IMG/VR virus record: IMGVR_UViG_3300027754_000063
Span: 1 to 64,000 of that record
Reading direction: 5' to 3' (one strand)
Source: a virus
DNA: 64,000 nt
Shown here: positions 11,379-59,388 of the stretch, piece after piece
Layout: each line of letters opens with the position of its first letter
Numbering within the stretch: the first letter of the stretch is position 1
The notes under the pieces: model-generated
Told to the model about the DNA's origin: nothing
Databases searched by the model: none
What the model saw: only the letters and a program-made list of their open reading frames with translations
Program-made: the position numbers and the translations under genes

Positions 11379-12404
11379 TTATGACTTTGGTTTTCTGCCT
11401 TGCATGATATGTCTTTTTACCGTGTGCAGAGACGCTTTTGGATCTTCCTCTCCAGATTCATTATCGGCTGTAACCTCTTCGTCACGATCCTGAGCATTTG
11501 GTCCAGTCTTTCGCTTTGGTTTATTTTGCATGGATGTTATAGAGCCTTCTTCAACAGAATTAGAAGCCAAATCATTTCCTAGTTTGCCTACCGGTGCAAA
11601 ACCAACATCTCCAGCTTGTGGCTCTGGACGCACTGCTTGTGTCAGGTTTTCAGTGTCAACAGGAGTAAATAGAGAATCTTTCTGATACTCTGTCCAACCA
11701 TCATGGAATTTTTGATCGGGGTCATGTCCGGTCATTTTGTTTACACTGTCCCACCAAGCAGCATTAGATTCTTCTTTCATCTTTTTGCTTTTTTTGTTCA
11801 TTTTGTTCATTTTTTTGAAATCTTTGCCTGTTATTTTTCCATCGCCGTCAACATCTAGCTTTTTTTGATTTCCTTTTAGCATTTTCTTTTTTGATTTTTT
11901 GCTAAATTTAAGACTCTCATCCTCATCCTCATCCTCATCCTCATCCTCATCCTCATCCTCATCCTCATCCTCATCCTCGTCCTCATCCTCATCCTCATCC
12001 TCGTCCTCGTCCTCGTCCTCGTCCTCATCCTCATGATCATGATGATGCTCGTCATCATCTTTGTCCTCTTCCTCTTCCTCCTCACCGCCATTATCTTCAT
12101 CATCTGAAAACATTTTCTTTTTGCTCATTTTGCCGCATTTCATTCCACATTTCTTGTTATCTTTTTTCTCTTTTTTCTCTTTCTCTTTTACTTCCACATC
12201 TACATCTACATCTGAATCTTTAACAATTTCTCCGTCACTATCTTTATCTTTTTTGTGTTTTTCTTTTTTCTTTGCATGTTTTGTTTCTTCAATATCGAAA
12301 CCACTTTGTAGCTGTATTCCGAGGTTAGAGTGGTTCCCTAGACCAAGATTGAAACTTGGTAGAATTGACTCGTTTAAATTTTTCCACTGTTTGTACGATA
12401 ACAT
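11379..12404 (-). CDS. Polyacidic protein with EF-hand-like loop and capsid-targeting-like N-terminus
   Basis: A 341-aa protein of unknown function. It starts MLSYKQWKNLNES, resembling the capsid-targeting motif seen in several genes of this window, with L-N-E as a possible prohead-protease site. A Lys-rich stretch follows, then a long run of alternating Glu and Asp (about residues 120-165). Next come a KKSKKK segment and LDVDGDGKITGKDF, a textbook EF-hand/dockerin calcium loop with ligands at positions 1, 3, 5 and 12. The C-terminal 130 residues are ordinary. AAGGAAA precedes ATG 12404. A packaged protein that balances charge or binds calcium is my inference. The GAG/GAT repeat DNA is slippage-prone. 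Confidence 0.7.
   Translation of the reverse strand: MLSYKQWKNLNESILPSFNLGLGNHSNLGIQLQSGFDIEETKHAKKKEKHKKDKDSDGEIVKDSDVDVDVEVKEKEKKEKKDNKKCGMKCGKMSKKKMFSDDEDNGGEEEEEEDKDDDEHHHDHEDEDEDEDEDEDEDEDEDEDEDEDEDEDEDEDEDEDEDESLKFSKKSKKKMLKGNQKKLDVDGDGKITGKDFKKMNKMNKKSKKMKEESNAAWWDSVNKMTGHDPDQKFHDGWTEYQKDSLFTPVDTENLTQAVRPEPQAGDVGFAPVGKLGNDLASNSVEEGSITSMQNKPKRKTGPNAQDRDEEVTADNESGEEDPKASLHTVKRHIMQGRKPKS
11919..12042. repeat. ATCCTC-type hexanucleotide repeat
   Basis: A run of TCATCC/TCGTCC units on the + strand encodes the alternating Glu-Asp tract of the - strand gene. It is an uninterrupted microsatellite-like array in which copy number could vary by slippage without a frameshift. Confidence 0.8.
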
Positions 12405-12468
12405 ATTTTCCTTCTTTTAATTTAAAGATAGCTACAGTCATTACGATTGTTAGTATATATATACCAAT

Positions 12469-13266
12469 ATGAAAATTAAAATATTTATTATTTTATTATT
12501 TTTTGCAATAATACTGCAAATAAATCAAAAAACAACTCAATTACAAGATTTTTCTGCTCTTTCTTTTCAAGAAAATCAAGAAGCAGAGATCATAATAGAT
12601 AAAATTAATAATATAAATTCTCAATTTGATAGTGTTATTTATAATAATATTTCAATAAAATTTAATTTTTTTATCTCTATTCATGCAAATGCACAGCTTT
12701 TTTTTGAAAAAACTAAAAGACTAAGAATTAAGATAGATCGTGGTATAATGGGATCTGAAATGGATATTGGATCAAATGAAAAAATATTTTGGTTTTGGTC
12801 AAAAAGGATGAAGCCACCAGTATTGTACTATTCTGAACATGAAGATTTTAAAAAATCTATGCTAAAAACACCACTGAATCCGGATTGGATAATTGAGTGT
12901 TTTGGATTTAATCAAATAGACAAGAGAAATATAAACGTTTTTAAAAAGAATGAATTACTATATGTAAAACAGGAAAGAAAAGGTTCATTAGGTGAAAAAG
13001 TATACTTTTTCACTATAATAGACCCAAAAAACTTAGTTGTAGTTGGAAGATATCTTCATGACGAAAATTATAAGATAATAGCAAGTTTTGAATCAAAATC
13101 TTTTTTTAGGGATGAAGAAACAGGATCTGTATTTGCCGATAATATCGTTATATCTTGGCCAGATGAAAACATATTCATGGAATGGTCCATAGATGGCATA
13201 CAAGTTAATAAGAAGATAGACAAAAAGACTTGGATATTGCCTTCAAAAGAGAATGTCAGGCTATGA
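12469..13266 (+). CDS. Secreted LolA-like/DUF4292-like protein
   Basis: A 265-aa protein with a clear N-terminal hydrophobic segment (MKIKIFIILLFFAIILQ) that is either a signal peptide or an anchor. The body has alternating strands and the stretch DIGSNEKIFWFWSKRMKPP, like LolA-fold lipoprotein-handling or DUF4292-type proteins of Gram-negative bacteria. The expected location is the host periplasm or envelope. No lipobox cysteine follows the signal. A TATATATA run ends about six bases before ATG 12469 and no Shine-Dalgarno is visible, so translation start is uncertain. Fold assignment rests on motif resemblance only. Confidence 0.5.
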   Translation: MKIKIFIILLFFAIILQINQKTTQLQDFSALSFQENQEAEIIIDKINNINSQFDSVIYNNISIKFNFFISIHANAQLFFEKTKRLRIKIDRGIMGSEMDIGSNEKIFWFWSKRMKPPVLYYSEHEDFKKSMLKTPLNPDWIIECFGFNQIDKRNINVFKKNELLYVKQERKGSLGEKVYFFTIIDPKNLVVVGRYLHDENYKIIASFESKSFFRDEETGSVFADNIVISWPDENIFMEWSIDGIQVNKKIDKKTWILPSKENVRL

Positions 13267-13305
13267 TTTTCCTTTAAAATTTATTGAAAAATTTTGTTTT
13301 GATAC

Positions 13306-13315
13306 TGCTATATAA
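13306..13315 (+). promoter_or_regulatory. TGCTATATAA putative promoter
   Basis: CTATATAATTTAACGGTC here and CTATATTAATCTAACGGTC at 13941-13959 share both the box and the following TAACGGTC. That makes these two the best-matched promoter pair in the window. Confidence 0.45.
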
Positions 13316-13353
13316 TTTAACGGTCGAAAAAAAAGAATGGAGACATCACCAAA

Positions 13354-13539
13354 ATGAAGACTTTCATGCAATGGGCTGGTAATGAGAAAAAAGAATTGCC
13401 AATGATATCAGAAAAAACGCACAGAGGTGGTATTGCACATTGGGCTTATCCTGATGCTTATGCAAGGTCACAATACCCCGATTTATATTTTACTCCAATC
13501 GCAGCAGACGCAATACAAAAGATGGGCATTAAGAAGTAA
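13354..13539 (+). CDS. Small protein with capsid-targeting-like N-terminus
   Basis: A 61-aa protein starting MKTFMQWAGNEKKE, a good match to the T4 internal-protein targeting sequence MKTYQEFIAE. The rest is Ala/Tyr/Pro-rich (GGIAHWAYPDAYARSQYPD) and not recognised. A small packaged head protein is the best guess. A CTATATAA element lies about 40 bases upstream and GGAGAC precedes the start. Confidence 0.65.
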   Translation: MKTFMQWAGNEKKELPMISEKTHRGGIAHWAYPDAYARSQYPDLYFTPIAADAIQKMGIKK

Positions 13540-13617
13540 TATTGACAGAATGCCATTGTTCTTGTTATCCTACGGACAGCAGTATAATGCTTTCTGCTAG
13601 TTAAAAAGGAGTTACAA

Positions 13618-13926
13618 ATGCCTCCAAGATGGTCAGATGTGTACCCACAAGGCACAAAAGAAGGCGATGAAGAACAAGGATTGTTCCTTGCCTTATCAAG
13701 AAATTTAACATATGCGTACAGATCAGTAGGTCAGCTTTCAAAAGATTCAAATTTATCTAAAGAGCGAACAGAAGAGATTTTAAATAAGTATTGGAAAAAA
13801 GGCATGACTTTCCAAAATAATGATAATAAATGGGCTTATTGGGAACGTGTTCCAGAATTGTTGCCAGTTGTATTAAAATCCATCACAAAAGAAGACCAAG
13901 AAAAAAGAACAAGTAAAAAATTATGA
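13618..13926 (+). CDS. Hypothetical protein (102 aa)
   Basis: AAAAAGGAG seven bases upstream fixes ATG 13618. The protein starts MPPRWSDVYPQGTKEGDEEQG; its middle (VGQLSKDSNLSKERTEEILNKYW, split after SKER by a likely turn) looks like a winged-helix or helix-turn-helix unit. That would fit a DNA-binding regulator, but no family is recognised. Confidence 0.65.
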   Translation: MPPRWSDVYPQGTKEGDEEQGLFLALSRNLTYAYRSVGQLSKDSNLSKERTEEILNKYWKKGMTFQNNDNKWAYWERVPELLPVVLKSITKEDQEKRTSKKL

Positions 13927-13939
13927 AATATAATTTTCA

Positions 13940-13949: not shown

Positions 13950-14056
13950 ATCTAACGGTCAGAATGATCTGCCCGCCGCTTGTTCTAAGACTGCGTTGTT
14001 TGTAGCGTAAATTCAAGTGAATCGTTCGTTGTTTAATTCCTTAAAGAGAATGTAAA

Positions 14057-15135: not shown

Positions 15136-15912
15136 ATGCGTGGAGTAATACTAGCAGGTGGCTTAGCAAAACGTATGCTGCCTGCTTCCAAAGTAATCAA
15201 TAAACATCTTATGCCTGTTTATATGGATGCTATAGGTGCCGTTCCAATGATTTATTTCCCATTAAATACATTGATAAAATCTGGAATAAAAGAAATATTA
15301 ATTGTTACATCTGAAAAATCTGCCGGAATGATGGTTGATATGTTGGGAGATGGCAATAAGTTTGGAGAAAATGTAGATTTTACATATAAAGTTCAAAATA
15401 TGAATAATGAAAAAAGACCTGTCGGTATTGCTGGTGCATTAAAATTAGCAAGAGTATTTACTGAAAATGAAAAGTTTGCGGTTATATTAGGCGATAATTT
15501 CTTTGAGGACTCTTTTGAAAAAGAAATTAAACAATTCGAATCAGGTCGTCATGTTGGACATATATTTTTAAAGTCTGTGAACGACCCAGAAAGATTTGGT
15601 GTTGTAAACATGAACAGCAATAATGAGATTATTGATATTGAAGAAAAACCAAATAATCCTAAATCCAACTATGCTTCTACTGGAATGTATCTCTTTGATA
15701 AGGCTGTTTACAATATTGCAAACAACTTAGTTGTTTCAAATAGAAAAGAGCTTGAAATAGTTGATATTCATAACCAATTAATTGCTAGAAAAGAGTTAAG
15801 TCTATCATTTGTCAATAAATTTTGGCACGATTTAGGAACACCAAAAAGTATAAGATTTGCTGAAAAATACTTGCAACAAGTTAATTTTGAATTCGAATTT
15901 CCTGTAAACTAA
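15136..15912 (+). CDS. Sugar-1-phosphate nucleotidyltransferase (RmlA-like)
   Basis: A 258-aa enzyme expected to join a sugar-1-phosphate to an NTP. The signature is RGVILAGGLAKRMLPAS...NKHLMPVY at the N-terminus (the usual G-G-x-x-x-R-L-x-P and K-x-x-x-P). VILGDNFFED carries the metal-binding Asp; EEKPNNPKS and ASTGMYLFD are typical of glucose-1-phosphate thymidylyltransferases. Leu is replaced by Met in the L-x-P step. AGGTG precedes ATG 15136. It ends by overlapping the convergent gene by 4 bases. With the epimerase at 10482 it forms a partial nucleotide-sugar pathway. Confidence 0.85.
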   Translation: MRGVILAGGLAKRMLPASKVINKHLMPVYMDAIGAVPMIYFPLNTLIKSGIKEILIVTSEKSAGMMVDMLGDGNKFGENVDFTYKVQNMNNEKRPVGIAGALKLARVFTENEKFAVILGDNFFEDSFEKEIKQFESGRHVGHIFLKSVNDPERFGVVNMNSNNEIIDIEEKPNNPKSNYASTGMYLFDKAVYNIANNLVVSNRKELEIVDIHNQLIARKELSLSFVNKFWHDLGTPKSIRFAEKYLQQVNFEFEFPVN

Positions 15913-16616
15913 CCAGTCGGTGCTACGTCTTGTCTTCTTCGTTGCTGGCGTTGCGGGCGTTGCATTTGAGTAACATTAGGCTGAGCGGCGTCAGGCTGAG
16001 CAACGGTCTGAGCAGCATTCTGAGGGACAGGTTGAGCAGCCGCCTGACCAGGAGGCACAACATTTTTTGCACCAACAACATTAGTGTCTGCAACATAAGA
16101 ACCCTGTTGAGCATGTGTTTGCAGTATATTTTTTACGTTTACAGATTGCTGCTGCAATTGTTTCATAATTCCTTGCAAATTACCAACAAGCTTTTTAGCT
16201 TCTGGATCTGTTTTAGAAGCTGATTGTACCGCAACGTTTTGATTTAATTCTTTTGATAAGGCATTTAGTGCTTCTAAGGAAGCAGCATAATGGGCTTCAG
16301 GACCTGCAACCGCTGCTCGAAATTGACCAGCAGATTGTGAGGCTTTATCTGCTATTTGACCAGCAGCAGACTTGACGCCTCCAATCATGTTCTTTCCAGC
16401 ATCTAATACAGCACTACCAAACCGTTTTACTCCATCCATAAATCCTTCTGAAACACTCTTATGCTCTTCTAATGCAATAATCATGTCGGCATTGCCTTCG
16501 TAGTATTCCAATAAAAACTTCCAAGGGTTAATGTTTTTTTCAACCATTAGTGTTGCAATTTCTTTTTTAATAGAATTTGCTGTTTTATTCTCTAAAAAGG
16601 ATTCAAATGATTTCAT
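15909..16616 (-). CDS. Capsid-targeting-like head protein, Ala/Gln-rich
   Basis: From ATG 16616 the protein starts MKSFESFLENKTANSIKKE, close to T4 MKTYQEFIAE, so I prefer this start over a longer frame reaching 16667. Residues about 20-70 are helical and end EEHKSVSEGF. A central amphipathic Ala/Gly segment follows, and the C-terminal 80 residues are Ala/Gln/Pro low complexity ending in Arg-rich RRRQD. No enzyme motif is seen. It probably is an internal prohead protein (inference). It overlaps the nucleotidyltransferase end by 4 bases. Confidence 0.65.
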   Translation of the reverse strand: MKSFESFLENKTANSIKKEIATLMVEKNINPWKFLLEYYEGNADMIIALEEHKSVSEGFMDGVKRFGSAVLDAGKNMIGGVKSAAGQIADKASQSAGQFRAAVAGPEAHYAASLEALNALSKELNQNVAVQSASKTDPEAKKLVGNLQGIMKQLQQQSVNVKNILQTHAQQGSYVADTNVVGAKNVVPPGQAAAQPVPQNAAQTVAQPDAAQPNVTQMQRPQRQQRRRQDVAPTG

Positions 16617-16965: not shown

Positions 16966-17442
16966 ATGAAAAATTTCAAAGAATGGAAGGATGCTGAAGA
17001 TTCATTTATTGAATCTGTAGAGGTATCTAGATATTCCATAGAAGTTAACTATAGAACCACTAGCGAAGAAGCATTAGAAGGTTTTGCGAAATTATGCTTA
17101 GGATATATAAGTGCAGCATTAAAAAAACATGGATACCACACAAAACATGTTTTTACAGAAAAGCCTCTAAGGTTAATGGTTTCTTCTAGAAATTGGGATG
17201 ATGGAGAATGGACAGGATTAGTTACATGGAACCCTGAGCATCTTTGTTTTATAATAAGCAAAGGGTTTTATAACAAAACCCGTAGTACGGTGTCAGTTAA
17301 AAAATCAATGAAATGTGTTGGCAAATCTGCATCAGAAATAACAAAAGAATTACACAATATGATGCATGCATTAAAAGAAGAACCGGATAGGCATGCAGAA
17401 AAACTAAAGCCAGTTGGTCTAAAACGAGGACCAAAAAAATAA
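16966..17442 (+). CDS. Capsid-targeting-like protein (158 aa)
   Basis: ATG 16966 gives MKNFKEWKDAEDSF, matching the targeting-like motif; an earlier TTG at 16945 adds only KNGNNN and has no binding site. The body is an alpha/beta protein with SRNWDDGEWTGLVTWNPEH and a C-terminal helix (ASEITKELHNMMHAL) ending in basic KRGPKK. No family is recognised. A packaged head protein is inferred. Confidence 0.65.
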   Translation: MKNFKEWKDAEDSFIESVEVSRYSIEVNYRTTSEEALEGFAKLCLGYISAALKKHGYHTKHVFTEKPLRLMVSSRNWDDGEWTGLVTWNPEHLCFIISKGFYNKTRSTVSVKKSMKCVGKSASEITKELHNMMHALKEEPDRHAEKLKPVGLKRGPKK

Positions 17443-18421: not shown

Positions 18422-20788
18422 ATGCCATTAATTTCTTACAAGTTGTTTTTAGAGATGGCACCACGGGGGCGGGGCGTTATTCACGGACATCTGTCTAAAT
18501 TTCCATTAAATTATGATGATGACGATTTAAAGTTCCTCAATCAGTTTGATATGAAGTATTACGCACAGGCAAGTGAACAAAGATTTGACATGCTTCATGA
18601 TGCTTTAAAAAAACTTCATGATAAAAGATTAGACATTATTAAAAGTGGTGATGAAAAAAAAGGTATACCAAGAAATTTTGATACAGAAATTAAGAATTTT
18701 TTATTAACTGGTAAATCAAAAAGCTTAAGTCAAGAAGACCAGAGAAAAATAAGAAGTTATAGAGAACTTCCTATAACTCCAGCTACAACGAGAGGCATGG
18801 GGGATAAGTTTGATGATAACGTTGCCGAAATTGCCAAAGAAGATGCTTTTGAAATAGTTAAGCAAAAAACAGAGAATCTGAAGGCTTTAGAATTAGATCC
18901 GCCTGCGGCAAATTTTTCGCTGAAGGGTTCCAAGATAACAGCAATTCCATATCTAAACAGATTGTATCACAGACTAGAGCGTACTAGAGGCGAAGCACAC
19001 ATAGGCATTGATGACAACGGCGTTCTTAGTGATTCTGAACATCCGGTCGGAAGTGTAGGAAAATATGGCTATGATTTGTCACACCCACACACGGAACATG
19101 ATCCTGAAAGTGGTTCGAAAAAGCATTACACAAGAGGCATGAGTTGGGTTGGTTCTGATGTTTGGGAGCGATCAATAAAAGAATATATTAAGCATAGTTC
19201 ACACGAACATTTTGGAGTTCACCCTAGAGTTGAGGAAGGTATTTTTAATCCAAAAATTGAAATAAAATGGCTCCCAATGGATGGTAAAGATGGACGTCCA
19301 AAAATTGAGGATCCAACATATGATTGGATGCTTGAAGATGAAATAGATAGACAAACAAAAAAAATGAAAGAAAATCTTCATCAAGGTCGACAAGCGAACG
19401 CAGCATCAAATCCGAAGAAAGTGGAGAGTAAGCCAGAAGGAAAAAAGCCACGACGAACCTTCAACCGTTTTGATAAAGCATTAACTGCCGACCAGAAGAA
19501 AGAAGTTAAAAAAAACGCTACCGATATAGTAAACAATAAAGTCAAAGCCGGTGAAGTATCTGCTCCATCTGTTCCTGGTGTCGATTCAGAAGAACGAAAA
19601 TTTGAGATTAGATCAAGTAAAACGGCATTTGGCGGACTAATTAGTCCATTTGTTTATTTGCCACATGAATATATTGATAAAAAATGGACACCACTTTTAA
19701 ATCCATCAACATATTTAAAAAAGGTTAAAGATGAAGCAGGAAATACTCAATATAAGCTAGATGATACTAATCGTATGGGCTCTCATTTTGGTGATACAAC
19801 TAATAGTAAAAATGTAGGCATTAGTCCCAATAAAAACGTTCCATCAAAAAATTATTTAGATCCTGATGATCCTGCAAACGCTACCGTCGTCAAAGAATTT
19901 GAGAAAGGAATTATTCCAGACGGAGAAATAAGGAAGGAATTCGAGCAGGGAGTTCGTAATTGTCTTACAGGAAATTGCGGTGGAGCGAACAGTGGTGTAA
20001 AAGATGCCATATTGAGAAATCCCAGCACATTTGAGGGGTTGGTCAATGATGTGATCATTGCAGCTTACAATCAATTAGGCGAACATTCACAAGTGTGGAG
20101 CGACCCTAAAACGTTTGCGATAGGCGTTGTGACCAATTATTTACAGGGTGCAGTGCATGATATGGCCACAAGAAGACTACGTGGAATACATGTACACGGC
20201 TTTACTTCACACGATCCATCTCAAAAAGGATACACTCCGGATGATAGAAGAAGACGAGGGGGCAGAATCCATTCTGTGAACCATAGGGATGCTATGAACA
20301 AAGCTCAAAAAGAATACGAGGCGGCGTTGAAAGCAGCGACACAGCAAAGTGGGACAGAAGGATTAAAAGATATTATTACTGCGGGAGAGGGAGCGTATGC
20401 TAATTTTTTTGATGCAGTCAAAGAAACACTAATAAAAACCCTCGGTGTAAACCAGACAAGAGCAGACTTATTAGTTAAAAATTGGATAAAGCAAGGGATC
20501 CATCCAGTTGATGTTGCTACCATTGTTAATGGTATGAAGCCTGAGAACGGCAACCCGATTAGCGGCGAGGGCGACAGCGGCGACTCTTCGCCTACGATTT
20601 TGCCACCTGCAAGGTTACCAATTTCAAAGCCTACGGCAACCTCCGTCAGAAACCCATTACTTGGGCGTGTTAAAAAAATAATTGGTGATTCGCCTACTGT
20701 TGATAACCCCCAAATAGACTGGAAAATTTTATCTGGTCTTACTTTTTTTGAACGTGTAGAAATACTAAAAAGAATAAGAAGAAGTTAA
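18422..20788 (+). CDS. Large capsid-targeting-like head protein (788 aa)
   Basis: A 788-aa hydrophilic protein of unknown function. The N-terminus MPLISYKLFLEMAPRG carries a variant targeting motif (SYKLFLE). The body mixes Lys-rich helical regions, a Pro/Lys linker at about 325-345 and a His-rich block (SHPHTEHDPESG, about 220-232). A long region around residue 410 reads FGGLISPFVYLPHEYIDKKW. The C-terminal 100 residues include Pro/Ser-rich linkers and end in RIRRS. There is no signal peptide or recognised catalytic motif. Large internal head proteins of giant phages look like this; packaging is inferred from the motif. GGGAAAAATA precedes ATG 18422. Confidence 0.65.
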   Translation: MPLISYKLFLEMAPRGRGVIHGHLSKFPLNYDDDDLKFLNQFDMKYYAQASEQRFDMLHDALKKLHDKRLDIIKSGDEKKGIPRNFDTEIKNFLLTGKSKSLSQEDQRKIRSYRELPITPATTRGMGDKFDDNVAEIAKEDAFEIVKQKTENLKALELDPPAANFSLKGSKITAIPYLNRLYHRLERTRGEAHIGIDDNGVLSDSEHPVGSVGKYGYDLSHPHTEHDPESGSKKHYTRGMSWVGSDVWERSIKEYIKHSSHEHFGVHPRVEEGIFNPKIEIKWLPMDGKDGRPKIEDPTYDWMLEDEIDRQTKKMKENLHQGRQANAASNPKKVESKPEGKKPRRTFNRFDKALTADQKKEVKKNATDIVNNKVKAGEVSAPSVPGVDSEERKFEIRSSKTAFGGLISPFVYLPHEYIDKKWTPLLNPSTYLKKVKDEAGNTQYKLDDTNRMGSHFGDTTNSKNVGISPNKNVPSKNYLDPDDPANATVVKEFEKGIIPDGEIRKEFEQGVRNCLTGNCGGANSGVKDAILRNPSTFEGLVNDVIIAAYNQLGEHSQVWSDPKTFAIGVVTNYLQGAVHDMATRRLRGIHVHGFTSHDPSQKGYTPDDRRRRGGRIHSVNHRDAMNKAQKEYEAALKAATQQSGTEGLKDIITAGEGAYANFFDAVKETLIKTLGVNQTRADLLVKNWIKQGIHPVDVATIVNGMKPENGNPISGEGDSGDSSPTILPPARLPISKPTATSVRNPLLGRVKKIIGDSPTVDNPQIDWKILSGLTFFERVEILKRIRRS

Positions 20789-25005: not shown

Positions 25006-25265
25006 TTTTGCCTTTCAATTTTTTCTTTTTCTTCATCTATCATTTTTTCAATAGCTTGCATTGAGAACCTCTGTGTACCTATTTTTTTATTTTCTTTTCT
25101 TTTTTGATTTTTAAGTTCTCTTTTGTTTCTTTTTAATTCGACTTCATTTAATTTGTATAAAGCCATTTGTATATACTGCTTAACGATAATAAGAGAAAAG
25201 TCTTCTGGGAAGTTTTGTAATGCTTTTTCCAAGCTGTTTTTAATTGTATTTATATTGTTTTTCAT
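25002..25265 (-). CDS. Hypothetical helical protein (87 aa)
   Basis: A small, very Lys/Glu-rich helical protein; the C-terminal 45 residues are probably coiled coil. It overlaps its neighbours by 4 bases on both sides, so it is translated as part of the terminase operon. Position after TerL invites a small-terminase comparison, but no motif supports that. Confidence 0.6.
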   Translation of the reverse strand: MKNNINTIKNSLEKALQNFPEDFSLIIVKQYIQMALYKLNEVELKRNKRELKNQKRKENKKIGTQRFSMQAIEKMIDEEKEKIERQK

Positions 25266-25948
25266 TTTTTAAGATAATTTATCAGGGAATTACAATCTTT
25301 TTGTAGTATTTCTGGTATAGATTTATTAGGAATTTCATTGATTTCATTATTCTCAAATTTAAATTTTATTTGTTTTTTATGGGTACTTCCAATTGTAACA
25401 ATAGCTTCTTCAGACAAATATGCTATATTCCCATATTCTGGAGTAGGGTACAGTGCTTCCACAAAAATATTGTGGTTGTGCCAGATTATATTCTTTACTG
25501 CTTTATCTATTTTTTCAGCTAATTCCTGTACTCTTTTTTTTGAATGGTAAGAATAATTACTAATAGCTTTATCTATCTCTATACAGTTAATTTCCTCTGC
25601 ATACAAACTAGTTTCATACTCTAATAACATTGAGTTTATTTTTTCTGCTGCTGTATTTGAATTTTTATATGCCCAATCAAATAGTTTTTTTCTTTCTTGT
25701 GATATCTTTTTTACTAAATGTGTAGCAACTGCCATCTCCAACAAAATTGAATTTGGGTACTGAGATTCTTCTAACAAATTTGTTAATTCTAGTTCATTAA
25801 TCGTATCGTTTTTAACAAATTTTATACGGTCTTTGCTTGGGTTCATTAGCAAGCCAGATAGTTCTTCTATCAAACTATTATTGTATTGTTCTATAGAAAA
25901 TTCTGTTTTCTTATTTTCTTTAATTTCTATGTATTTTTTGTAAGACAT
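25262..25948 (-). CDS. Hypothetical protein in terminase operon (228 aa)
   Basis: Starts MSYKKYIEIKENKKTEF. The first 170 residues are helical with coiled-coil character; the last 50 have strands (IAYLSEEAIVTIGSTHKKQ). AGAAAG precedes ATG 25948. It follows TerL by 9 bases and overlaps the next gene by 4. A virion or packaging accessory is possible from position; family unknown. Confidence 0.6.
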   Translation of the reverse strand: MSYKKYIEIKENKKTEFSIEQYNNSLIEELSGLLMNPSKDRIKFVKNDTINELELTNLLEESQYPNSILLEMAVATHLVKKISQERKKLFDWAYKNSNTAAEKINSMLLEYETSLYAEEINCIEIDKAISNYSYHSKKRVQELAEKIDKAVKNIIWHNHNIFVEALYPTPEYGNIAYLSEEAIVTIGSTHKKQIKFKFENNEINEIPNKSIPEILQKDCNSLINYLKK

Positions 25949-34030: not shown

Positions 34031-34696
34031 ATGGTCAAAGTAATTTGTTTTTTTACACTTCTATGCTTTTTAAGCTTTTCTTATAAAATAAATTCAGATT
34101 TTGGTAGCGAAAAACAAGAGCTAACAGAAAATGAAGATGAACTTAAGAATGTTATGGTGCCTATCCAAATGCAAGATAGGGTCTATAATAAAACCGGTGT
34201 GCAATGTGTGTGGGCGTCTATTGAATGTGTAGGACGATATGCAGAGGAGCCAAAATTAATTGGGCTTACTAAAGATAAAGAATGTCAGAGCTATGCAAGT
34301 CCATCATCACTCTCAGCTAAACTGAAGAAATTAAATGTAAGATATGAACAGACAACAAGCCGTAATGATCGTAGTCTTATAATTAAATCCGTTGTTAAAG
34401 AAAGACGAGGTTGCCTGTTCGCAGTTCCAGGACATGCTATGACATTAGTGCATTATGATGCAATAAAAGGAGTAGTTAAGTATATCAACAACAGCGACAG
34501 AAGCTTACAAATTAGAACATGGACTATGAAAGAATTTGAACAAAGATGGGACGGATGGATTTGTGCAATATATGCTGATAATGATATTATTCCCAAAAAA
34601 TACACTATAATGTATCCAATATCAATAATCGATAGAAGTGCAATACAAGGCGATTACGATAAGAGCTACATATTGATGCCACGCCAGCTAAACTGA
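34031..34696 (+). CDS. Secreted papain-like (C39-type) cysteine protease with C-terminal YILMP motif
   Basis: ACAAGGAGG supports ATG 34031, giving 221 aa. Residues 1-18 (MVKVICFFTLLCFLSFSY) are a signal peptide. Gln58/Cys59 in VQCVWASIE, His135 in PGHAMTLVHYD and Asn153 or Asp156 in INNSD give the papain-like Gln-Cys-His-Asn pattern, closest to bacteriocin-processing C39 domains. The C-terminus IIDRSAI...DKSYILMP matches that of the secreted trypsin-like protease at 23149. Periplasmic action is inferred. Confidence 0.75.
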   Translation: MVKVICFFTLLCFLSFSYKINSDFGSEKQELTENEDELKNVMVPIQMQDRVYNKTGVQCVWASIECVGRYAEEPKLIGLTKDKECQSYASPSSLSAKLKKLNVRYEQTTSRNDRSLIIKSVVKERRGCLFAVPGHAMTLVHYDAIKGVVKYINNSDRSLQIRTWTMKEFEQRWDGWICAIYADNDIIPKKYTIMYPISIIDRSAIQGDYDKSYILMPRQLN

Positions 34697-34915
34697 ATGA
34701 TTGTCCAAATTAACAGGCTTCGGAAAAGCTTTTTTTGGAGAAGCGTTTGTTTTTGGCAATCGAACATGTGGCGGTGGATTTTTTTTTGTTATAGGCAAAT
34801 CATCCTTATATGTTGGGAAAGCTCCTATAACTTCACCAGGCTTTTCATCGTCCACTCCAGAAACATTGCCGACAGACCCACCATAATTTTCTAACCATTT
34901 TTTAAAATAAAACAT
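34688..34915 (-). CDS. Small protein with capsid-targeting-like N-terminus
   Basis: A 75-aa protein starting MFYFKKWLENYGGS, a match to the targeting-like motif. The rest is Pro/Lys-rich and probably disordered (KKNPPPHVRLPK). AGGTG precedes ATG 34915. It overlaps the convergent papain-like gene by 9 bases. A packaged head protein is inferred. Confidence 0.6.
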   Translation of the reverse strand: MFYFKKWLENYGGSVGNVSGVDDEKPGEVIGAFPTYKDDLPITKKNPPPHVRLPKTNASPKKAFPKPVNLDNHSV

Positions 34916-38414: not shown

Positions 38415-38656
38415 TAAAAATTTTTCCTAGAATAGCAATGAAAAATAGGAAAATGATAGAACAATCATCTTTAGTGGGATGCTATTCATGTTGCAAAATA
38501 TTTGATTCAAAAGACGTAAAAGAATACACAGACCGTAATGAAACGGCATTATGCCCGCATTGCAACGTCGATTGCTTGGTCGGAAATCAATGCGGATTCG
38601 TTCTAGAAGAAAGTATATTAATAAAAGCACGCCAATACTGGTTTAATAATTGTTAA
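38411..38656 (+). CDS. Small zinc-ribbon protein
   Basis: An 81-aa protein starting within the portal stop (ATGA). VGCYSCCKIFDSKDVKEY, then DRNETALCPHCNVDCLVG is a CxxC...CxxC zinc ribbon like small bacterial and phage proteins with CPxCxxD. It lies where T4 has the small head genes 67/68, but nothing else links them. Function unknown. Confidence 0.7.
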   Translation: MIKIFPRIAMKNRKMIEQSSLVGCYSCCKIFDSKDVKEYTDRNETALCPHCNVDCLVGNQCGFVLEESILIKARQYWFNNC

Positions 38657-39020
38657 CTGCTGGGTTGGCATTAGGATCCTTAGAAACATCACCTAAACCT
38701 TGTGTAATCATTCCGCTAACACGCTTGCCACCACGAGTTACGCCAGTTCTTAAGTCTGATAGTGACTCAAAGTCATGTTGCTTTAGTATTGCTTCAACTG
38801 TATCTCTTACCTCTGGAATACTATTGCTTTGAGCTTTAAGCCACGATATAGCAGCACCCGGCCTTTCGCCAAGTATTAACTCAAAAGCCTCTATTGCAGC
38901 ACTTAAAGCAGCTTGTGTTCTTGCATCTAATCCAATGCTTCCCGCTCCTCCAAGCATCTCTTTGCCCATGTTCATGGCACTTATTTCTTGTAGTTTTACG
39001 TAATCTATAAATTTTTTCAA
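38643..39020 (-). CDS. Capsid-targeting-like protein, TTG start
   Basis: A 125-aa protein beginning at TTG 39020 with AGGAG nine bases upstream. The N-terminus MKKFIDYVKLQEISAMNMG fits the targeting motif and has L-Q-E as a prohead-protease site. The rest is helical, Ala/Gly/Glu mixed (AALSAAIEAFELILGE), ending NANPAVNNY. It is a likely internal head protein lying inside the head gene cluster on the opposite strand. It overlaps the convergent zinc-ribbon gene by 14 bases. Confidence 0.65.
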   Translation of the reverse strand: MKKFIDYVKLQEISAMNMGKEMLGGAGSIGLDARTQAALSAAIEAFELILGERPGAAISWLKAQSNSIPEVRDTVEAILKQHDFESLSDLRTGVTRGGKRVSGMITQGLGDVSKDPNANPAVNNY

Positions 39021-39175: not shown

Positions 39176-41020
39176 ATGAAAAGAAAACTAATTAGTTTCG
39201 ATGTCTTCAAGAATCTTGAAGAACAGTCACTTACAAACGCTCAGAGAGAATTGGTTGAGGCTCAAGATGTTTTGGCCGAAGCACTAGGCGTAGAAAGCAT
39301 CAAACTGTTTACCTTCGGAGAATCCGAAGTAACATATGAAGTACAAGATGGTACTTACATTCATGCAACATATACCATAAAAGATAATAGCATCATATTA
39401 GAAAATATAGAGCAACTTGTTGTTGACGAAGAAGGCGAAAGAAAGAATACAAGAGAAATCATCTCGCAAATGGTGGAATCTATTATAAGCAATGATGAAA
39501 ACAAAGCCAATCAAAAGTTTGAGCAGTACATAAATACACCCGCTGTTAAAAGAAGCCTAAACGAAGCAGCGTTCAAAGTTACAACATCAAGACCAACCGG
39601 TAAACGTTCTGAACTATGGCACAAGCGCCAGTCACGCTCAACGGTTGCTAAAAGAACCAGAGCTAGGAAAATGACACTTTCCAGAATGTCACCTTCACAG
39701 AAGAAGCAACTCGCCAGAGCAAGAGCTATTGCGAAAAGAAAGTTGGGCGGCACGACAAACAGCAGAGCACGTGTTTATGCAAGGAAAATCAAGAAAAGTC
39801 ATATGAAAGAATGGAACACAATAATTGAAAATGTAACTAATTATATTAATTACAAACAATTCGGTTCTGTTATGACTGAGTCCTTCGTAAAACATGATAA
39901 AAATGGAGAAATATCATCGCTATCAGTGCCAACAACCTCTAAAAGAAATGAAGGAAAGATTCTTTCTTTTAATTGGGACACAATGGATCACGAAGTAAAG
40001 TGCATGCGTAGCAAAATGAAGAATATAAAAGAAGATCAGAATTTTATCAAAGCTATGGCAGATCTAAAAAGATATAACAACATATCAGACAACACTTCGC
40101 TAGAAAGTACATTGGAAGCTATTGTAACTCGTTGGCCTGAAATGATCTATATGACAGAGTCGGAACTAGCTACACAAATTTCAAAGGCACTAGAATCAGC
40201 AAATATTAAAAACTTTGATGATAAAACTTGCTTGTTTATGGCAGAAGCTGTGCTGCGAACTGCACACAATGCATATGCAGACAGAGTTAAAAATATAAGC
40301 AAATTAGCCGGAGAAACAAAAGATGTAACAAGCGAATGCAAAGATTGCGAAGATGCTTATAATGACTTTAAAAATGTTGTAGAACAGTTTTATGTCAAAT
40401 TAGACGAATCAGAAGAAAAAGAACTAAAGGTTTTTGAAGACCTGTTTAACGCTTTGAGAGAAGTACATGCTTTTGCTGTAGAAGCCGAAGACAAAGAAGA
40501 ACTAGAAGAGATTGAAGGTCTTCTCGAAAGATGCGTTTCTGTACTTAAAAAAGAAAGCGAAATCGATCTTGAACTCGCAGAAGAAATGACAGACTATTTG
40601 GCATATTTCTCTGAGGCAAATGTCGATGGAGCATCACAGGATTGGGATGTCGAAGAGAAACCTCATCATTCCGTATCAGGAAATCATCCTTATGTTGATA
40701 AACTTGCAAAATCAGATGCTGTAGCAAGTTTGTACAACGGTGACTGGAAAAGCCCAGCACCTGTGAGTGATGGAAAAAGTCACCATGGTAATCTTGATGA
40801 TGAAATGAAAAATGATGGATGGAGCAATTGTGGAGGCGATGACACATGGCCAACACTAGATAATCCATATGTTCCTAAATCCGATACATATAAAATGAAA
40901 GAAAAGTCTGTTGTTGATGATGGTGATGAACTCGCTCAGAATCAATCAAATGACACATGGCCAAATTTGAGTAATCCTTATGCTAAAGTAGGAAAAAATA
41001 CACCCAAAGACGTAGAGTAA
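39176..41020 (+). CDS. Head/prohead core protein (614 aa)
   Basis: Located between portal and prohead protease, where T4 has core genes 67 and 68. The start MKRKLISFDVFKNLEEQSL is a longer variant of the targeting motif with L-E-E. Residues about 140-200 are very basic (VAKRTRARKMTL, ARARAIAKRKLGG), a feature of prohead core proteins. The rest is acidic helical. The C-terminus has two copies of DTWP-L-NPY (about 557 and 592). Processing by the downstream protease is expected. GGGAGTC precedes ATG 39176. Confidence 0.65.
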   Translation: MKRKLISFDVFKNLEEQSLTNAQRELVEAQDVLAEALGVESIKLFTFGESEVTYEVQDGTYIHATYTIKDNSIILENIEQLVVDEEGERKNTREIISQMVESIISNDENKANQKFEQYINTPAVKRSLNEAAFKVTTSRPTGKRSELWHKRQSRSTVAKRTRARKMTLSRMSPSQKKQLARARAIAKRKLGGTTNSRARVYARKIKKSHMKEWNTIIENVTNYINYKQFGSVMTESFVKHDKNGEISSLSVPTTSKRNEGKILSFNWDTMDHEVKCMRSKMKNIKEDQNFIKAMADLKRYNNISDNTSLESTLEAIVTRWPEMIYMTESELATQISKALESANIKNFDDKTCLFMAEAVLRTAHNAYADRVKNISKLAGETKDVTSECKDCEDAYNDFKNVVEQFYVKLDESEEKELKVFEDLFNALREVHAFAVEAEDKEELEEIEGLLERCVSVLKKESEIDLELAEEMTDYLAYFSEANVDGASQDWDVEEKPHHSVSGNHPYVDKLAKSDAVASLYNGDWKSPAPVSDGKSHHGNLDDEMKNDGWSNCGGDDTWPTLDNPYVPKSDTYKMKEKSVVDDGDELAQNQSNDTWPNLSNPYAKVGKNTPKDVE

Positions 41021-41044: not shown

Positions 41045-41725
41045 ATGGAACAAAAACAAACACTTTTCGTAGATTGCTGCTGCAATTCTGGCTTTACTCT
41101 GGACTTAAATGAGTCCACTGAAAAAGGCACAACCGTTTTTAAAGGTAAATTCCAAGAAGCAGAGGCTGTTAATAAAAACAAAAGAATATACCCATATGCT
41201 GTATTAGATGAAAATGTTAAAAAACTAATACCAATAATCGAAGCAAGAGGACTTGTAGGTGAATTAGACCACCCAGCAGATAGTATTATTCATTTTGAAA
41301 AATGTTCCCACATAATTACTAAGCTATGGTGGGAAGGTAATAGCCTCATGGGACAAGGAGAGATACTGAACACACCACACGGTAGAATATTAAAAGGATT
41401 GCTAAATGATGGCGTTAGAATAGGAATCAGTAGCCGTGGGGTAGGGAATGGGAAAAATGATGATAATGGTATTTTAATAATTGGAGAAAGTTATAAACTC
41501 ATCACGTTTGATGCTGTAGCTGATCCAAGTACATATTCTGCTTTTCAAGAAAAAGTAGTAGGGAAAAAAGAAAATTATGAAGCACATGCAAACAAAGATC
41601 TTCAATTAACAAAAAAAGCAGAAAAAATTGACTCGAGCTGCATACATAAAGTTAACAAAGAAGCACTCATTGCTTGCTTGGGCGGAATAATAGAACAAAA
41701 AACAGAAACATTAAAGCGAGGTTAG
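41045..41725 (+). CDS. gp21: Prohead core protease (gp21-like)
   Basis: A 226-aa serine protease with the herpes-assemblin-like fold of T4 gp21. His76 in GELDHPAD, and Ser129/Ser130 in IGISSRG, are the expected catalytic residues. VFKGKFQEAEAVNKNKRIYP is the conserved N-terminal substrate strand region. It would cleave scaffold, capsid and targeting peptides after (L/I)-x-E during maturation. AAAAAGGAG precedes ATG 41045. The Cys-rich CCC near the N-terminus is unusual. The scaffold starts 6 bases after the stop. Confidence 0.92.
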   Translation: MEQKQTLFVDCCCNSGFTLDLNESTEKGTTVFKGKFQEAEAVNKNKRIYPYAVLDENVKKLIPIIEARGLVGELDHPADSIIHFEKCSHIITKLWWEGNSLMGQGEILNTPHGRILKGLLNDGVRIGISSRGVGNGKNDDNGILIIGESYKLITFDAVADPSTYSAFQEKVVGKKENYEAHANKDLQLTKKAEKIDSSCIHKVNKEALIACLGGIIEQKTETLKRG

Positions 41726-41731: not shown

Positions 41732-42631
41732 ATGGAAAAGATTGTAGAAGCATTAAGAAAACTTTTGCCAGAAAATGAAATCAATGAGGTTTCATCCGCC
41801 GTTCAACAAATGTTGGAACAAGCAAAGCTTGATCTAGAAACAGAATTCAACGAGAAACTTGAAGAAGCGTATGGCGACCTATCCAGCGAAGTAGCCGAAG
41901 CAGAAAAAATTGCAGAAGCTGGATATGAAGAAGCATATGCAATTATTGCAGATCTTAGAAACAGATTAGAAATTCAAGGCGAAGAATATAAAGCCGCATT
42001 AGAAGAAGGATACGAAGAAGCATACGAAATGCTCACCCAAGAAAAGGGAAAGAATCAAACACTCGAAGTAGAAATGTACGAAGAGTATGACAAAAAGCTT
42101 TCCGAAATGAAAGAATATATCGTAGACAAAGTCGACCAGTTCCTACAGTTTAAAGGTCAAGAGATTTATGAACAAGCTAAACTTGAGATCGTAAATGATC
42201 CTCGTATGGCAGAACATAAAGTCGCTCTTAACAAAATTGTAGACATAACTGCAAACTACCTGTCTGACGATGACTTTGCTGCTGTATCTTCAAATAAAGT
42301 TGAAGAAGCAAATAAGAAGATAGAAGAAATGAAAGGACAGCTTCGAATCATGGAAGCCCGCAACATCAGAGTTTCAACAGAAAATACCAAGCTCAATGAA
42401 ACCGTACGACACGCTCAAGAAGTAATCAACGAAAGCCGAAAAGCTGTCGTGGAAAGCAAAAAGGAAGCTGTCGTTAACGAACAGAAAGAAAGAACTGAAA
42501 AAGCAAAGAATGTAACGGGGAGAGGAAGAACAAGTGATGGTGAAGTCGTATCGGAATACGCATCACCCAATAATAATAATTCTGGTGCAGATCAATTATT
42601 GATCCTATCAGGATTGAAACAAGCTCAATAA
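41732..42631 (+). CDS. gp22: Prohead scaffold protein (gp22-like)
   Basis: A 299-aa, highly acidic, almost wholly helical coiled-coil protein between protease and capsid genes, as T4 gp22. Repeats EAxYGDLSSEVAEAEKIAE, GYEEAYAIIADL and GYEEAYEML suggest heptad packing. Several I/L-x-E sites allow degradation by the prohead protease. GAGG lies about 10 bases before ATG 41732. Confidence 0.88.
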   Translation: MEKIVEALRKLLPENEINEVSSAVQQMLEQAKLDLETEFNEKLEEAYGDLSSEVAEAEKIAEAGYEEAYAIIADLRNRLEIQGEEYKAALEEGYEEAYEMLTQEKGKNQTLEVEMYEEYDKKLSEMKEYIVDKVDQFLQFKGQEIYEQAKLEIVNDPRMAEHKVALNKIVDITANYLSDDDFAAVSSNKVEEANKKIEEMKGQLRIMEARNIRVSTENTKLNETVRHAQEVINESRKAVVESKKEAVVNEQKERTEKAKNVTGRGRTSDGEVVSEYASPNNNNSGADQLLILSGLKQAQ

Positions 42632-42660: not shown

Positions 42661-44100
42661 ATGAACGCAAATTCGCAATTTCTCAATGAAGCAAAAGAGT
42701 TAGAATCTCGCTGGGCGCAGACAGGTCTCCTCGAAGGCATTACAGACAGGTTCACTCGATCTGCTACAGCGGTTCTACTCGAAAATCAAAGGCTTATGAA
42801 CGAAGCCAGCACCGACACAGGTGACGTTGCTCAGTTCAAACGAATCAGTATACCACTCGTTCGTCGTATCTATCCACAGCTTATCGCTAACAAAATTGTT
42901 AGCGTTCAGCCACTACTCGGACCAACAGGTCTAGTGTATTATCTCCGATTCCGATATGGTAGCAATAAGGGTGCAACTCGAGGTGCTGACAAGAACGGTT
43001 TCCCAACTGATGATGCAAACAGCTTGATGCAGTTGGCAGACGGTACTGCCAATTTAGATATTTTCTATAGCAGCCAGTTCGTTCAGAATGAAGTATCCAA
43101 TACGGATACAGGCACCGGAACCACAGTTGTGTACACCGGAACTGAACACACTCCAATCCTAGCAGGAACCATCACTGGTACTGTTTATGATAATGCTACT
43201 GCAATTCAGACGTTTGTTGTATCAGCGGCTGGCGTTTTTACATTTACTGATATTGGTAGTCCAAATCCTAAAGCTCAATCTGCTGGATCAAGCGTTAACA
43301 CAACAACGGGCGAACTAACAGTTGTGTGGACCGGTGTTGCAGGAGATAATCATCTTGTATTCAGCTATGAATACAATATGGAATGTAATCAGGATCTACC
43401 AGAAATCAACCTAGTTATTGAGTCAGAAGAAATTGCTGCAAAAACACGCAAGCTAAAAGCTGTGTGGAGCTATGAAGCTCAGCAAGATCTACGCTCACAG
43501 CACAATCTTGATGCTGAAGCTGAGTTGACTGCTGTTCTAGCTCAGGAAATTAACCTTGAAATCGACCGTGAAGTTCTAACCGATCTTCGTAACAATGCTG
43601 GTACCGTATCAGCTTGGGATTTCAATACCGCTCTTGGTGATACCATCAAAGAGAAGTATGAATCACTATATGTTAAGGTTGTCGAAATCAGCAACGTAAT
43701 TCATCGTAAGACATTACGTGGTGGTGCCAATTGGCTCGTAACAAGCCCAGAAGTTGCCTCAATATTTGAGACGGCAACCGCCGGCTTCGCTCCAGCCCCA
43801 AGTGAGACGTTCACAAGCTCACTCGGTGTTCAGTATGTTGGTACTGTCAATAACAGATGGAGACTCTACAAGGATCCACTATTCCCAAGCAATCAGGTAT
43901 TGATGGGATATAAGGGCGACAGCTACATGGACAGCGGATATTTCTACTGCCCATACGTGCCACTCACCCAGACTCCAGTGGTTCTTGACCCAGAATCCTT
44001 CTGCCCACGCAAGGGAATCTTGACTCGTTACGGAAAAAAATTATTAAGGGAAGGGGCAAAATTCTACGCCAGATTATCTATCGCTAATTTTGTGATATAG
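42661..44100 (+). CDS. gp23: Major capsid protein (gp23-like)
   Basis: A 479-aa HK97-fold capsid protein of the T4 type: LLENQRLMNEAS, FKRISIPLVRRIYPQLIANKIVSVQPL, split here by family convention, and GPTGLVYYLRFRYG are signature blocks; the C-terminal part has TRYGKKLLREGAKFYARL. Residues about 148-245 are a beta-rich Thr/Gly insertion, like the Ig-like insertions of related large phages. GLLE at about residue 25 is a candidate prohead cleavage site. GAAGGAAAAT-like ATAAGGAAAAT is a strong binding site. GC and codon use rise here, as expected for high expression. A strong terminator follows. Confidence 0.95.
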   Translation: MNANSQFLNEAKELESRWAQTGLLEGITDRFTRSATAVLLENQRLMNEASTDTGDVAQFKRISIPLVRRIYPQLIANKIVSVQPLLGPTGLVYYLRFRYGSNKGATRGADKNGFPTDDANSLMQLADGTANLDIFYSSQFVQNEVSNTDTGTGTTVVYTGTEHTPILAGTITGTVYDNATAIQTFVVSAAGVFTFTDIGSPNPKAQSAGSSVNTTTGELTVVWTGVAGDNHLVFSYEYNMECNQDLPEINLVIESEEIAAKTRKLKAVWSYEAQQDLRSQHNLDAEAELTAVLAQEINLEIDREVLTDLRNNAGTVSAWDFNTALGDTIKEKYESLYVKVVEISNVIHRKTLRGGANWLVTSPEVASIFETATAGFAPAPSETFTSSLGVQYVGTVNNRWRLYKDPLFPSNQVLMGYKGDSYMDSGYFYCPYVPLTQTPVVLDPESFCPRKGILTRYGKKLLREGAKFYARLSIANFVI

Positions 44101-51202: not shown

Positions 51203-51376
51203 TCAGTTTTTCTTCAAAGAAGCGTTCTTTTTCTTTTTTATAGATTTTTTCCCACAATTTAAATCAGAAAGTGCACCCCAAATTTGAAAATTAGCATTAC
51301 TTCTATCTTTGCAACCTACTATGGCATCACCGCCTGCGTTCTCTTTAATTTTTAACCAATTATAAAATGTTTTCAT
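51203..51376 (-). CDS. Small protein with capsid-targeting-like N-terminus (57 aa)
   Basis: ATG 51376 opens MKTFYNWLKIKENAGGDA, the best match in the window to T4 MKTYQEFIAE, with I-K-E followed by Asn as a candidate prohead-protease cut. The remaining about 43 residues contain two Cys and a Lys-rich tail (KKSIKKKKNASLKKN). It lies 45 bases upstream of the phosphoesterase on the same strand. Too short for many gene finders. Confidence 0.6.
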   Translation of the reverse strand: MKTFYNWLKIKENAGGDAIVGCKDRSNANFQIWGALSDLNCGKKSIKKKKNASLKKN

Positions 51377-57341: not shown

Positions 57342-57357
57342 TTAATTTCTTTCTATG

Positions 57358-58623: not shown

Positions 58624-58782
58624 ATATGGATTTGGCAAGGAAACAGTCCATAAGTGGAATGCAATGAATTGCCTTTAGCTCCTAAGCATTTTTATTAAAA
58701 GTTTATTTACATTATATATATTGTTTTTTTTAAATTTTATTATATATAGATTGTCAGTATAATCTACAATTTAAGGGTTTTT

Positions 58783-58824
58783 ATGCAATTTAATCAATGG
58801 TTAGAATGTAATAATACCAGATAG
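58783..58824 (+). pseudogene. 13-codon fragment of a capsid-targeting-like gene
   Basis: ATG 58783 encodes MQFNQWLECNNTR and a stop, so only the targeting motif remains. It lies 48 bases before the intact motif gene at 58873, whose start is MNFKQWLVSC. A truncated duplicate or a true minigene are both possible. AAGGG lies about 8 bases upstream. Confidence 0.5.
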
Positions 58825-58872
58825 CTACGAAGCAATTTTTAGAAAAATTATACTTACAGTACTAGGAATAAT

Positions 58873-59388
58873 ATGAATTTTAAACAGTGGTTAGTTAGTT
58901 GCAAGTCACCAAGTATTTTTGAAAACTCTAAAGGCTTAGACTTCTTGCGGGCTGACAGCTCTGAACGTGCTAGATTCCAGTCCCTAAGTCAGCAAATAGA
59001 TCAAGCATATGCGATAAAAGATTATAAAAAAGCAGAAGAACTAGAAGTTGAATTAGAAGACCTGTCTAATAATTTGGAAGATAAACTAAGTGATATTGGT
59101 CAAGAAGGTGGAGAGGAAGATGATGTTGATCAAGATTGGAGTGTTCAAGATGACTTTGCAAATATATATGCTAGATATTTAAGCAATAAGATAAGCGATG
59201 CTGATATTTTCCCTATTCTTAAAGATGCTATACTTGCACCTAATATTAATTTATCTTTTCCAAATATGAAGCTAATAAATAGTCTTGACAAAGAGTCTTT
59301 ACTTGCGATGGCAAAAGATGCTTATTTACATAAGAAAAATATGCATGCTTCTTTAAAAGGAGCCGGTAGTTTGTGGGGTAAAAAGTAA
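58873..59388 (+). CDS. Capsid-targeting-like protein coupled to ART-like gene
   Basis: A 171-aa, acidic, helical protein starting MNFKQWLVSCKSPSIFENS. The middle is coiled coil (AYAIKDYKKAEELEVELED); the C-terminus is basic and ends SLWGKK. CTAGGAATAAT supplies a binding site. TAATG overlaps the next gene by one base, so the pair is made together. It may carry the ADP-ribosyltransferase-like protein into the head (inference). Confidence 0.65.
   Translation: MNFKQWLVSCKSPSIFENSKGLDFLRADSSERARFQSLSQQIDQAYAIKDYKKAEELEVELEDLSNNLEDKLSDIGQEGGEEDDVDQDWSVQDDFANIYARYLSNKISDADIFPILKDAILAPNINLSFPNMKLINSLDKESLLAMAKDAYLHKKNMHASLKGAGSLWGKK

Follow-up and report, generated by a model that had tools for sequence, protein, structure and literature searches.

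Introduction

In bacteriophage T4, the capsid-targeting sequence carries foreign proteins into heads (PMC3012670; PMC9024508). The T4 internal proteins (Ips) enter the host by injection, and each inhibits its own GmrSD restriction enzyme, according to the accessible parts of PMC12373910 and PMC9391042. In T-even phages the ip genes were found by their signal sequence, and at least 10 Ips are counted (Repoila 1994 as cited in PMC12373910). Here we describe a similar leader, called the tag below, that begins many genes in a 64,000-base stretch of viral DNA (the window, bases 1-64000 of the 89,276-base IMG/VR virus record IMGVR_UViG_3300027754_000063) and in related genomes. We consider it highly likely that this shared N-terminus is a T4-type capsid-targeting sequence; docking, trimming, packaging and entry with the DNA are what we infer from it.

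In SPN3US and phiKZ, many head proteins are trimmed by the prohead protease and ejected with the DNA, and the propeptides mostly exceed 100 residues in the accessible account (PMC5694885), whereas the motif of the present clade lies within about the first 14 residues. Unlike this clade, phiKZ had no tag at any of the 218 gene starts scored over 200 kb. In phage P1, the N-terminal 30 residues of DarB suffice to send a reporter to the capsid; the accessible part of the same paper gives no consensus for the Dar N-termini (PMC9024508), whereas the clade tag has one. Like the T-even ip genes, the cargo described here is predicted from its leader, which is an established idea. Unlike those genes, confined to T-even phages in the sources cited, it forms a genome-wide set in a distant clade. 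The open-licence literature on capsid-targeting sequences, internal head proteins of huge or jumbo phages and gp61.1 contains, in its accessible text, no report of the tag outside T-even phages or at such a scale. The signal is of a known kind; what differs here is its far larger scale and its presence in a clade for which we found no report of it.

Genomes and motif model

The capsid protein of the window is 78.9% identical to that of LR756511.1 (uncultured phage, 595,163 bases) and at most 44% identical to those of other named records. Relatives of this protein are encoded in 385 IMG/VR stretches; the best 80 were retained, with contigs up to 532,729 bases. Because of this capsid kinship with huge phages, the window is regarded as a fragment of a huge-phage genome. 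Six clade genomes were scored, namely the window's own record (G000), G001, G002, G003, G004 and LR756511.1. Genes were called with a custom script, which gave 106 genes in the record (108 in an earlier version) and over-called short genes in G001 and LR756511.1, so that percentages there are too low.

The tag is about 12 residues long, with a consensus of roughly (K/L/M)(T/S/N)F(K/R)(Q/E)(W/F/Y)(L/V)xxxE, and it probably folds as a short helix. It was scored with a position-specific model of 11 columns; for held-out scoring of the window, training used the other five large genomes. The window had already been seen when the seed pattern for training was drawn up, and orthologues of window families are present in some training genomes. 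A gene is called tagged at a held-out score of at least 8, unless another cut-off is given.

The tag is specific to gene starts

The tag exists far above chance and is specific to gene starts. Ten of the 70 genes in the window scored at least 8, while the same N-termini, shuffled 500 times, averaged 0.22 such genes with a maximum of 2. In the whole record, 12 of 106 N-termini reached the threshold against none of 396 internal Met windows. The corresponding counts were 28/855 against 11/2,769 in G001, 38/450 against 4/1,914 in G002, 20/303 against 3/1,227 in G003, 30/356 against 1/1,474 in G004 and 46/1,112 against 9/2,644 in LR756511.1. Summed over the six genomes, 174 of 3,182 N-termini and 28 of 10,424 internal Met windows scored as tagged, and chance would account for about 9 of the 174. 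Among control phages, phage G (200 kb scored) had none in 262 genes, as phiKZ had none, and LR756508.1 (400 of 484 kb) had one in 547. Other phages gave 4/268 (T4), 4/215 (P-SSM4) and 3/234 (Mel-JY01).

A preliminary description of this DNA had reported unrelated genes on both strands with a common start. Every start that it listed was found, and its eight intact genes had held-out scores of 7.7 to 17.6. The wider motif search that it proposed is the one reported above; it enlarged the set and brought in recognisable enzymes.

We also scored 71 further clade loci (872,218 bases, 887 genes), of which 312 genes were left after removal of those at least 60% identical to training genes or to each other. 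Here 50 of 312 N-termini scored at least 8, compared with 4 of 1,102 internal windows. The N-terminal scores left a gap, with none from 4.6 to 7.2. Nineteen of the 50 tagged genes had no blastp hit in the training genomes.

Synonymous codons at the tag positions were mixed, mostly following the usage of each genome, and for this reason we read the tag as a protein-level signal, selected as protein rather than as DNA. Adjacent pairs of tagged genes exceeded random expectation in W01 (p 0.003), G002 (0.02) and G004 (0.03); no excess over random was seen in G000, G001 and G003. A TGCTATAT string stands upstream of four tagged genes in the window's record and was picked out post hoc as a k-mer.

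Relationship to the T4 capsid-targeting sequence

When T4 was scored with a model free of T4 data, the top four of 268 gene calls were gene 61.1 (18966-19130, score 15.2), ipII (65416-65718, 10.6), ipI (73591-73878, 10.1) and ipIII (65834-66415, 9.8). The fifth-ranked gene scored 6.0. Because a model that had seen no T4 sequence places these four genes on top, the clade tag is very probably the T4 capsid-targeting sequence, as the preliminary description had proposed. Gene 61.1 (AF158101 18966-19130) outscores all three known internal proteins, which makes it a candidate for an unrecognised internal protein.

Like T4 IPI-III, the clade proteins carry an N-terminal leader of the MKT(F/Y)xxF(I/L)xE type on unrelated bodies, and like T4 the clade has a gp21-family protease and the same gene order in the head cluster. 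Unlike T4, the clade tag favours W at the position of the T4 F, and 20 to 46 genes are tagged per large clade genome compared with 4 in T4. The clade bodies also include recognisable enzymes, whereas the T4 Ips known so far, in the accessible part of PMC12373910, inhibit GmrSD.

Head genes, protease and possible cleavage of the tag

The head genes of the window, all on the plus strand, stand in the T4 order. The first encodes a T4 gp20-like portal protein with an intein-like insert (35880..38414; phrog_213, 2.3e-77). The insert starts with CVVGDTKVATPFG and ends with IIHN before C, and PHROG portal matches return only past residue 347. A prohead core protein (39176..41020), named after gp68 from its position only, is followed by the prohead protease of the T4 gp21 family (Peptidase_S77; 41045..41725). 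The assignment of a gp21-like protease at 41045, made in the preliminary description, is borne out by matches to PF03420 (2.0e-28) and phrog_207 (2.7e-48) and by the T4-ordered cluster. Next come a probable scaffold at the gp22 position (41732..42631), assigned from position and strong conservation in relatives and without a Pfam family match at 0.01, and the major capsid protein of the T4 gp23 family (42661..44100; phrog_138, 7.1e-85). The scaffold would be the expected docking partner of the tag.

Each of the 15 huge-phage records searched, including that of the window, has an S77-family protease. A search of phiKZ, lambda and phage G gave no match; nothing matched in that search, so it is not proof of absence. 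In the capsid protein, a hydrophobic-N-E sequence at residue 48 is kept in 25 of 25 distinct N-termini and is likely to be a processing site. We take this site to lie near the T4 gp23 cut position. The S77 protease thus probably favours T4-like sites.

Cleavage of the tags themselves is partly supported. Of the (L/I)-x-E sites after which they were claimed to be cut, one lies within the first 14 residues in the genes starting at 12404, 39020 and 51376; the other five of the eight intact genes have none there. At positions F+5 to F+18, [LIVM]-x-E occurs in 98 of 197 tagged genes and in 701 of 2,985 untagged genes, an excess that is partly circular, since the model itself scores Glu at F+5 and F+8. 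A further set consisted of 88 starts picked solely on FxxW plus a hydrophobic residue. Glu was enriched there at F+5 (29/88 against 223/3,094), F+6 (20) and F+8 (23), and hydrophobic-x-Glu was enriched at F+6 (15) and F+8 (11).

The proposed course of events is as follows. Late in infection, the gp22-like core forming inside the prohead would serve as the dock for a tagged protein. Where the tag has a hydrophobic-x-E site, the S77 protease would then trim it there. The cargo would be kept in the capsid with the DNA and would enter the cell alongside it. Much of the set may serve as a counter-defence and take-over kit for the first minute, a role like that of T4 IPI-III at far larger scale.

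Several observations weigh against this reading. In T4, 4 of 855 internal windows pass at threshold 8 and 1 of 855 at 9. False positives occur, namely a primase family, the terminase G002:263951, the tail-tube protein G002:241773 and a likely clamp-loader ATPase in P-SSM4. When the conservation of the core tag was compared with that of the body, the tag was higher in 3 of 8 families and lower in 5. The T4 late promoter TATAAATA, taken with up to one mismatch, occurred at a higher frequency upstream of tagged genes in five of the six genomes; as a promoter common to them it was dropped, since 2 to 9 of 40 anagrams did equally well or better in those genomes and 40 of 40 did so in the window's record. 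Finally, about half of the tags have no nearby [LIVM]-x-E, so that the cut site or its rule is uncertain.

This last point favours a reading in which the tag is a docking signal that stays uncut or is cut elsewhere, so that the tag may persist on the cargo, with some members working in assembly instead of being injected. The mere 26 [LIVMF]-x-E instances at F+6 or F+8 in the 88 FxxW starts and the possible C-terminal copies described below point the same way. With the protease and the capsid-protein site both T4-like, we think it unlikely.

A tag that addresses proteins elsewhere, such as to a replication compartment or phage nucleus, to the membrane or to a partner in the host, is improbable. 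A UvrD helicase and a CCA-adding enzyme are tagged, and these would also suit a replication site. However, the best matches outside the clade are the three internal head proteins of T4, whose tag is described as targeting the capsid (PMC3012670). PHIKZ054 had no sequence match in G001-G004, W01 and W02, although a distant homologue could escape a sequence search. PHIKZ054 is, we assume, chimallin.

Bodies behind the tag

The tag is a module on unrelated, often enzymatic bodies. In 197 tagged genes (score at least 7), the bodies fall into 141 blastp families, 117 of them singletons. For a Pfam scan we took 106 tagged proteins, one per body family, with at least 90 residues, a score of at least 8.5 and a position within one locus; 133 families qualified without the length limit. 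The 106 proteins matched 38 Pfam families, 25 of them among the matches listed. Tagged proteins include a PolyA_pol protein, as in CCA-adding enzymes, over the Pfam cut-off (G004:23801) and, at G001:315000, a 2'-5' RNA ligase domain that exceeds the cut-off for Acb1, an anti-CBASS family, as well. Others carry, likewise over the cut-off, a tRNA-ligase phosphodiesterase domain (tRNA_lig_CPD, LR756511.1:411779), the RNA-repair HAD domain HAD_SAK_1 (LR756511.1:582920), an NIF-type phosphatase (G001:346338), a C39-like peptidase (Peptidase_C39, G002:242461) and Radical_SAM (G002:122708). A phosphoribosyltransferase-like domain is tagged at LR756511.1:520504. AAA_33 kinase-like and FMN reductase bodies are tagged in other clade loci. 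A second batch of ten tagged proteins gave a single Pfam match, below the cut-off, and among ten window proteins only the helicase at 2993 passed it. The TIGR02996 domain (best E 1.3e-16) was found in two of the 106 scanned proteins, from related genomes. This repeat is presumably typical of planctomycetes and may hint at the host.

Homologous bodies occur with and without the tag. Of the cross-genome homologue pairs of tagged bodies, 202 had both members tagged, 30 had the tag at an alternative start and 82 had an untagged member; these counts all include the primase false positive. The C39 peptidase is tagged in three genomes, and an untagged protein 46% identical to it (G002:241116) adjoins the tagged G002:242461. 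LR756511.1 and G004 have tagged CCA-adding enzymes, G002 has a borderline one and G001 one that scores 3.8; untagged forms are encoded at G002:56147 and LR756508.1:87173. Three genomes have a tagged 2H/Acb1-like protein, and LR756511.1 and LR756508.1 have an untagged one. The HAD domain bears the tag in LR756511.1 and lacks it in G004.

It is very improbable that the tagged genes are divergent paralogues of one duplicated internal protein, in which the common start reflects descent and the bodies have diverged. Some families are indeed paralogous, such as the 13354 type with two copies in three genomes, but the bodies belong to unrelated Pfam folds and the untagged homologues begin near the start of the body. 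A chance or composition effect, or a helical start common to any phage gene, is hardly credible, since the counts stay near zero in shuffled N-termini, in internal Met windows and in control phages, even though FxxW/FxxF helices occur in ordinary proteins and the false positives named above were seen.

Because RNA-repair, cyclic-nucleotide or peptidase domains account for many of the bodies that can be recognised, the tagged set may act largely in counter-defence. A counter-defence role in jumbo phages has been proposed for RNA repair, 2H phosphoesterases and Nudix enzymes, with no loading signal mentioned in the accessible part of that work (PMC7824862). Most genes of huge phages are anonymous. 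With a tag that can be read from sequence alone, 20 to 46 genes in each large genome could be classed as particle-borne and first-acting. Each tagged gene would thereby gain a testable early role. The tag would also draw attention to enzymes that counter defence systems active before phage transcription, and it would supply ready-made loading signals for very large capsids.

A possible C-terminal form of the tag

Protein C-termini were scanned with 8 columns of the model at threshold 10, homologues being counted more than once. In the six genomes the motif occurred at 22 of 37,098 C-terminal and 80 of 432,376 internal positions (p=1.3e-5). Other thresholds gave p values of 2.0e-4 to 3.8e-4, except for 2.0e-5 at threshold 11. 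In control phages the counts were 6/20,417 and 57/301,934 (p=0.21).

NUDIX proteins encoded near the 16966-type gene had the motif at their end in four of five genomes, and Pfam confirmed NUDIX in three of the four. The motif-ending protein of G004 was rejected as a NUDIX protein, as it has no NUDIX Pfam match and the true homologue in G004 has no motif. Two more distant NUDIX-like proteins lack a terminal motif. Two dihydroorotate-dehydrogenase-like proteins have it at the C-terminus. In the 64703 family, the G001 member has no N-terminal tag and carries a C-terminal one. A C-terminal form of the tag is therefore likely but unproven.

A more far-reaching idea is that of an open, portable cargo code, in which a 12-residue tag at either end would pre-load any protein that bears it into the head and would have moved from the N- to the C-terminus in one family. 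Dozens of enzymes, for instance a helicase, peptidases and enzymes of tRNA repair and cyclic-nucleotide hydrolysis, would then arrive together with the DNA for counter-defence. We put this forward tentatively, as somewhat less probable than its opposite.

Tagged genes of the window and record

The bodies of the 14 record genes that score at least 7 with the full model form 14 separate blastp families (E<=1e-3). The first gene, absent from the earlier list, encodes a UvrD/REP-type helicase tagged MFKRWLNIDEMA (2993..5233, plus strand, score 12.4). It matches PF00580 (5.5e-22) and phrog_1967 (2.1e-68), with the helicase part starting at about residue 138-147; one relative is tagged (L054:5946) and another is not (G002:326071). 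An acidic protein tagged MLSYKQWKNLNES (11379..12404, minus strand, score 17.6) belongs to a family of 6, with a tagged member in each of the six clade genomes. The small protein MKTFMQWAGNEKKELP (13354..13539, plus strand, 17.6) has a family of 9 members over the six genomes, with tandem copies in three. No homologue of the protein MKSFESFLENKT (15909..16616, minus strand, 13.2) was found among the collected clade proteins. The protein MKNFKEWKDAEDS (16966..17442, plus strand, 16.0) has homologues in all six genomes, tagged in four; the structure model of this family was poor (mean pLDDT, predicted local distance difference test, 65.1) and Foldseek gave nothing at E<=0.001.

Two longer variants had been proposed, and one of them stood. 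The 788-residue protein MPLISYKLFLEMAP (18422..20788, plus strand) scores 8.7; relatives are tagged at G003:124609, G004:143056 and W01:469121, tagged at an alternative start in G001:401718 and untagged at G002:179417. The other, the gp68-position protein at 39176, scores 4.2 and was set aside; its own N-terminus is conserved among gp68-position proteins. The gene at 21222 (score 7.7) is a probable false positive, the motif being part of the body in a DnaG-like primase family.

A weaker tag, MSYKKYIEIKENKK, was added on the minus strand at 25262..25948 (score 9.9), in a gene that adjoins the large terminase gene. Of its relatives, G001:315885 is tagged, G003:208023 has the tag only when read from an alternative start, and G002:262996 scores 2.2. 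The 75-residue protein MFYFKKWLENYGG (34688..34915, minus strand, held-out score 7.7) has tagged relatives in L011 and L012. Inside the head gene cluster, on the opposite strand, lies the protein MKKFIDYVKLQEIS with a TTG start (38643..39020, minus strand, 13.7), which has many homologues with a conserved tag. A 57-residue protein tagged MKTFYNWLKIKENAG is encoded at 51203..51376 (minus strand, 15.6).

At 58783..58824 (plus strand, score 12.8), a truncated tag copy, MQFNQWLECNNTR, is followed by a stop; it lies 90 bases before the gene for the tagged protein MNFKQWLVSCKSPS (58873..59388, plus strand, 16.1). The next gene (59388..62081, plus strand) encodes an 897-residue protein with an internal tag-like motif, NNFKAWLESIEDYEPF, at residue 233 (internal score 16.0). 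It had no Pfam match at 0.01 and no homologue among the collected clade proteins. By eye its first part is ADP-ribosyltransferase-like, and the protein may have arisen when an upstream domain was fused to a tagged one.

Two further additions lie outside the window, at 64122-64706 (score 9.0) and 64703-64966 (11.8). The 64122 family has HExxH in 9 of 9 rows and on this motif alone may be metallopeptidase-like. Its structure model was poor (mean pLDDT 62.6), Foldseek gave nothing at E<=0.001, and a profile search against PDB sequences returned only designed or unrelated chains at E>=0.012.

Other features of the record and its relatives

Directly after the capsid gene, at 44214-45035, lies an open reading frame (ORF) that by eye is HNH or homing-endonuclease-like. 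Four ORFs (5729-6640, 23149-24021, 31746-33245 and 34031-34696) look by eye like subtilisin-, trypsin-, M4- and C39-like peptidases, some with signal-like N-termini; the M4-like one matched PF01447 at 0.0057, below the cut-off. Close to the beginning of the record, frames of low-complexity repeats (195-560 and 746-1230) are hardly gene-like. In L003, a protein of more than 1,200 residues made of FGPIPTG-like repeats (5558-9244) continues past the end of that record. Outside the window, 67917-68453 of the record encodes a small sigma-70 region 2 protein (PF04542, 3.6e-7), possibly a T4 gp55-like late sigma factor.

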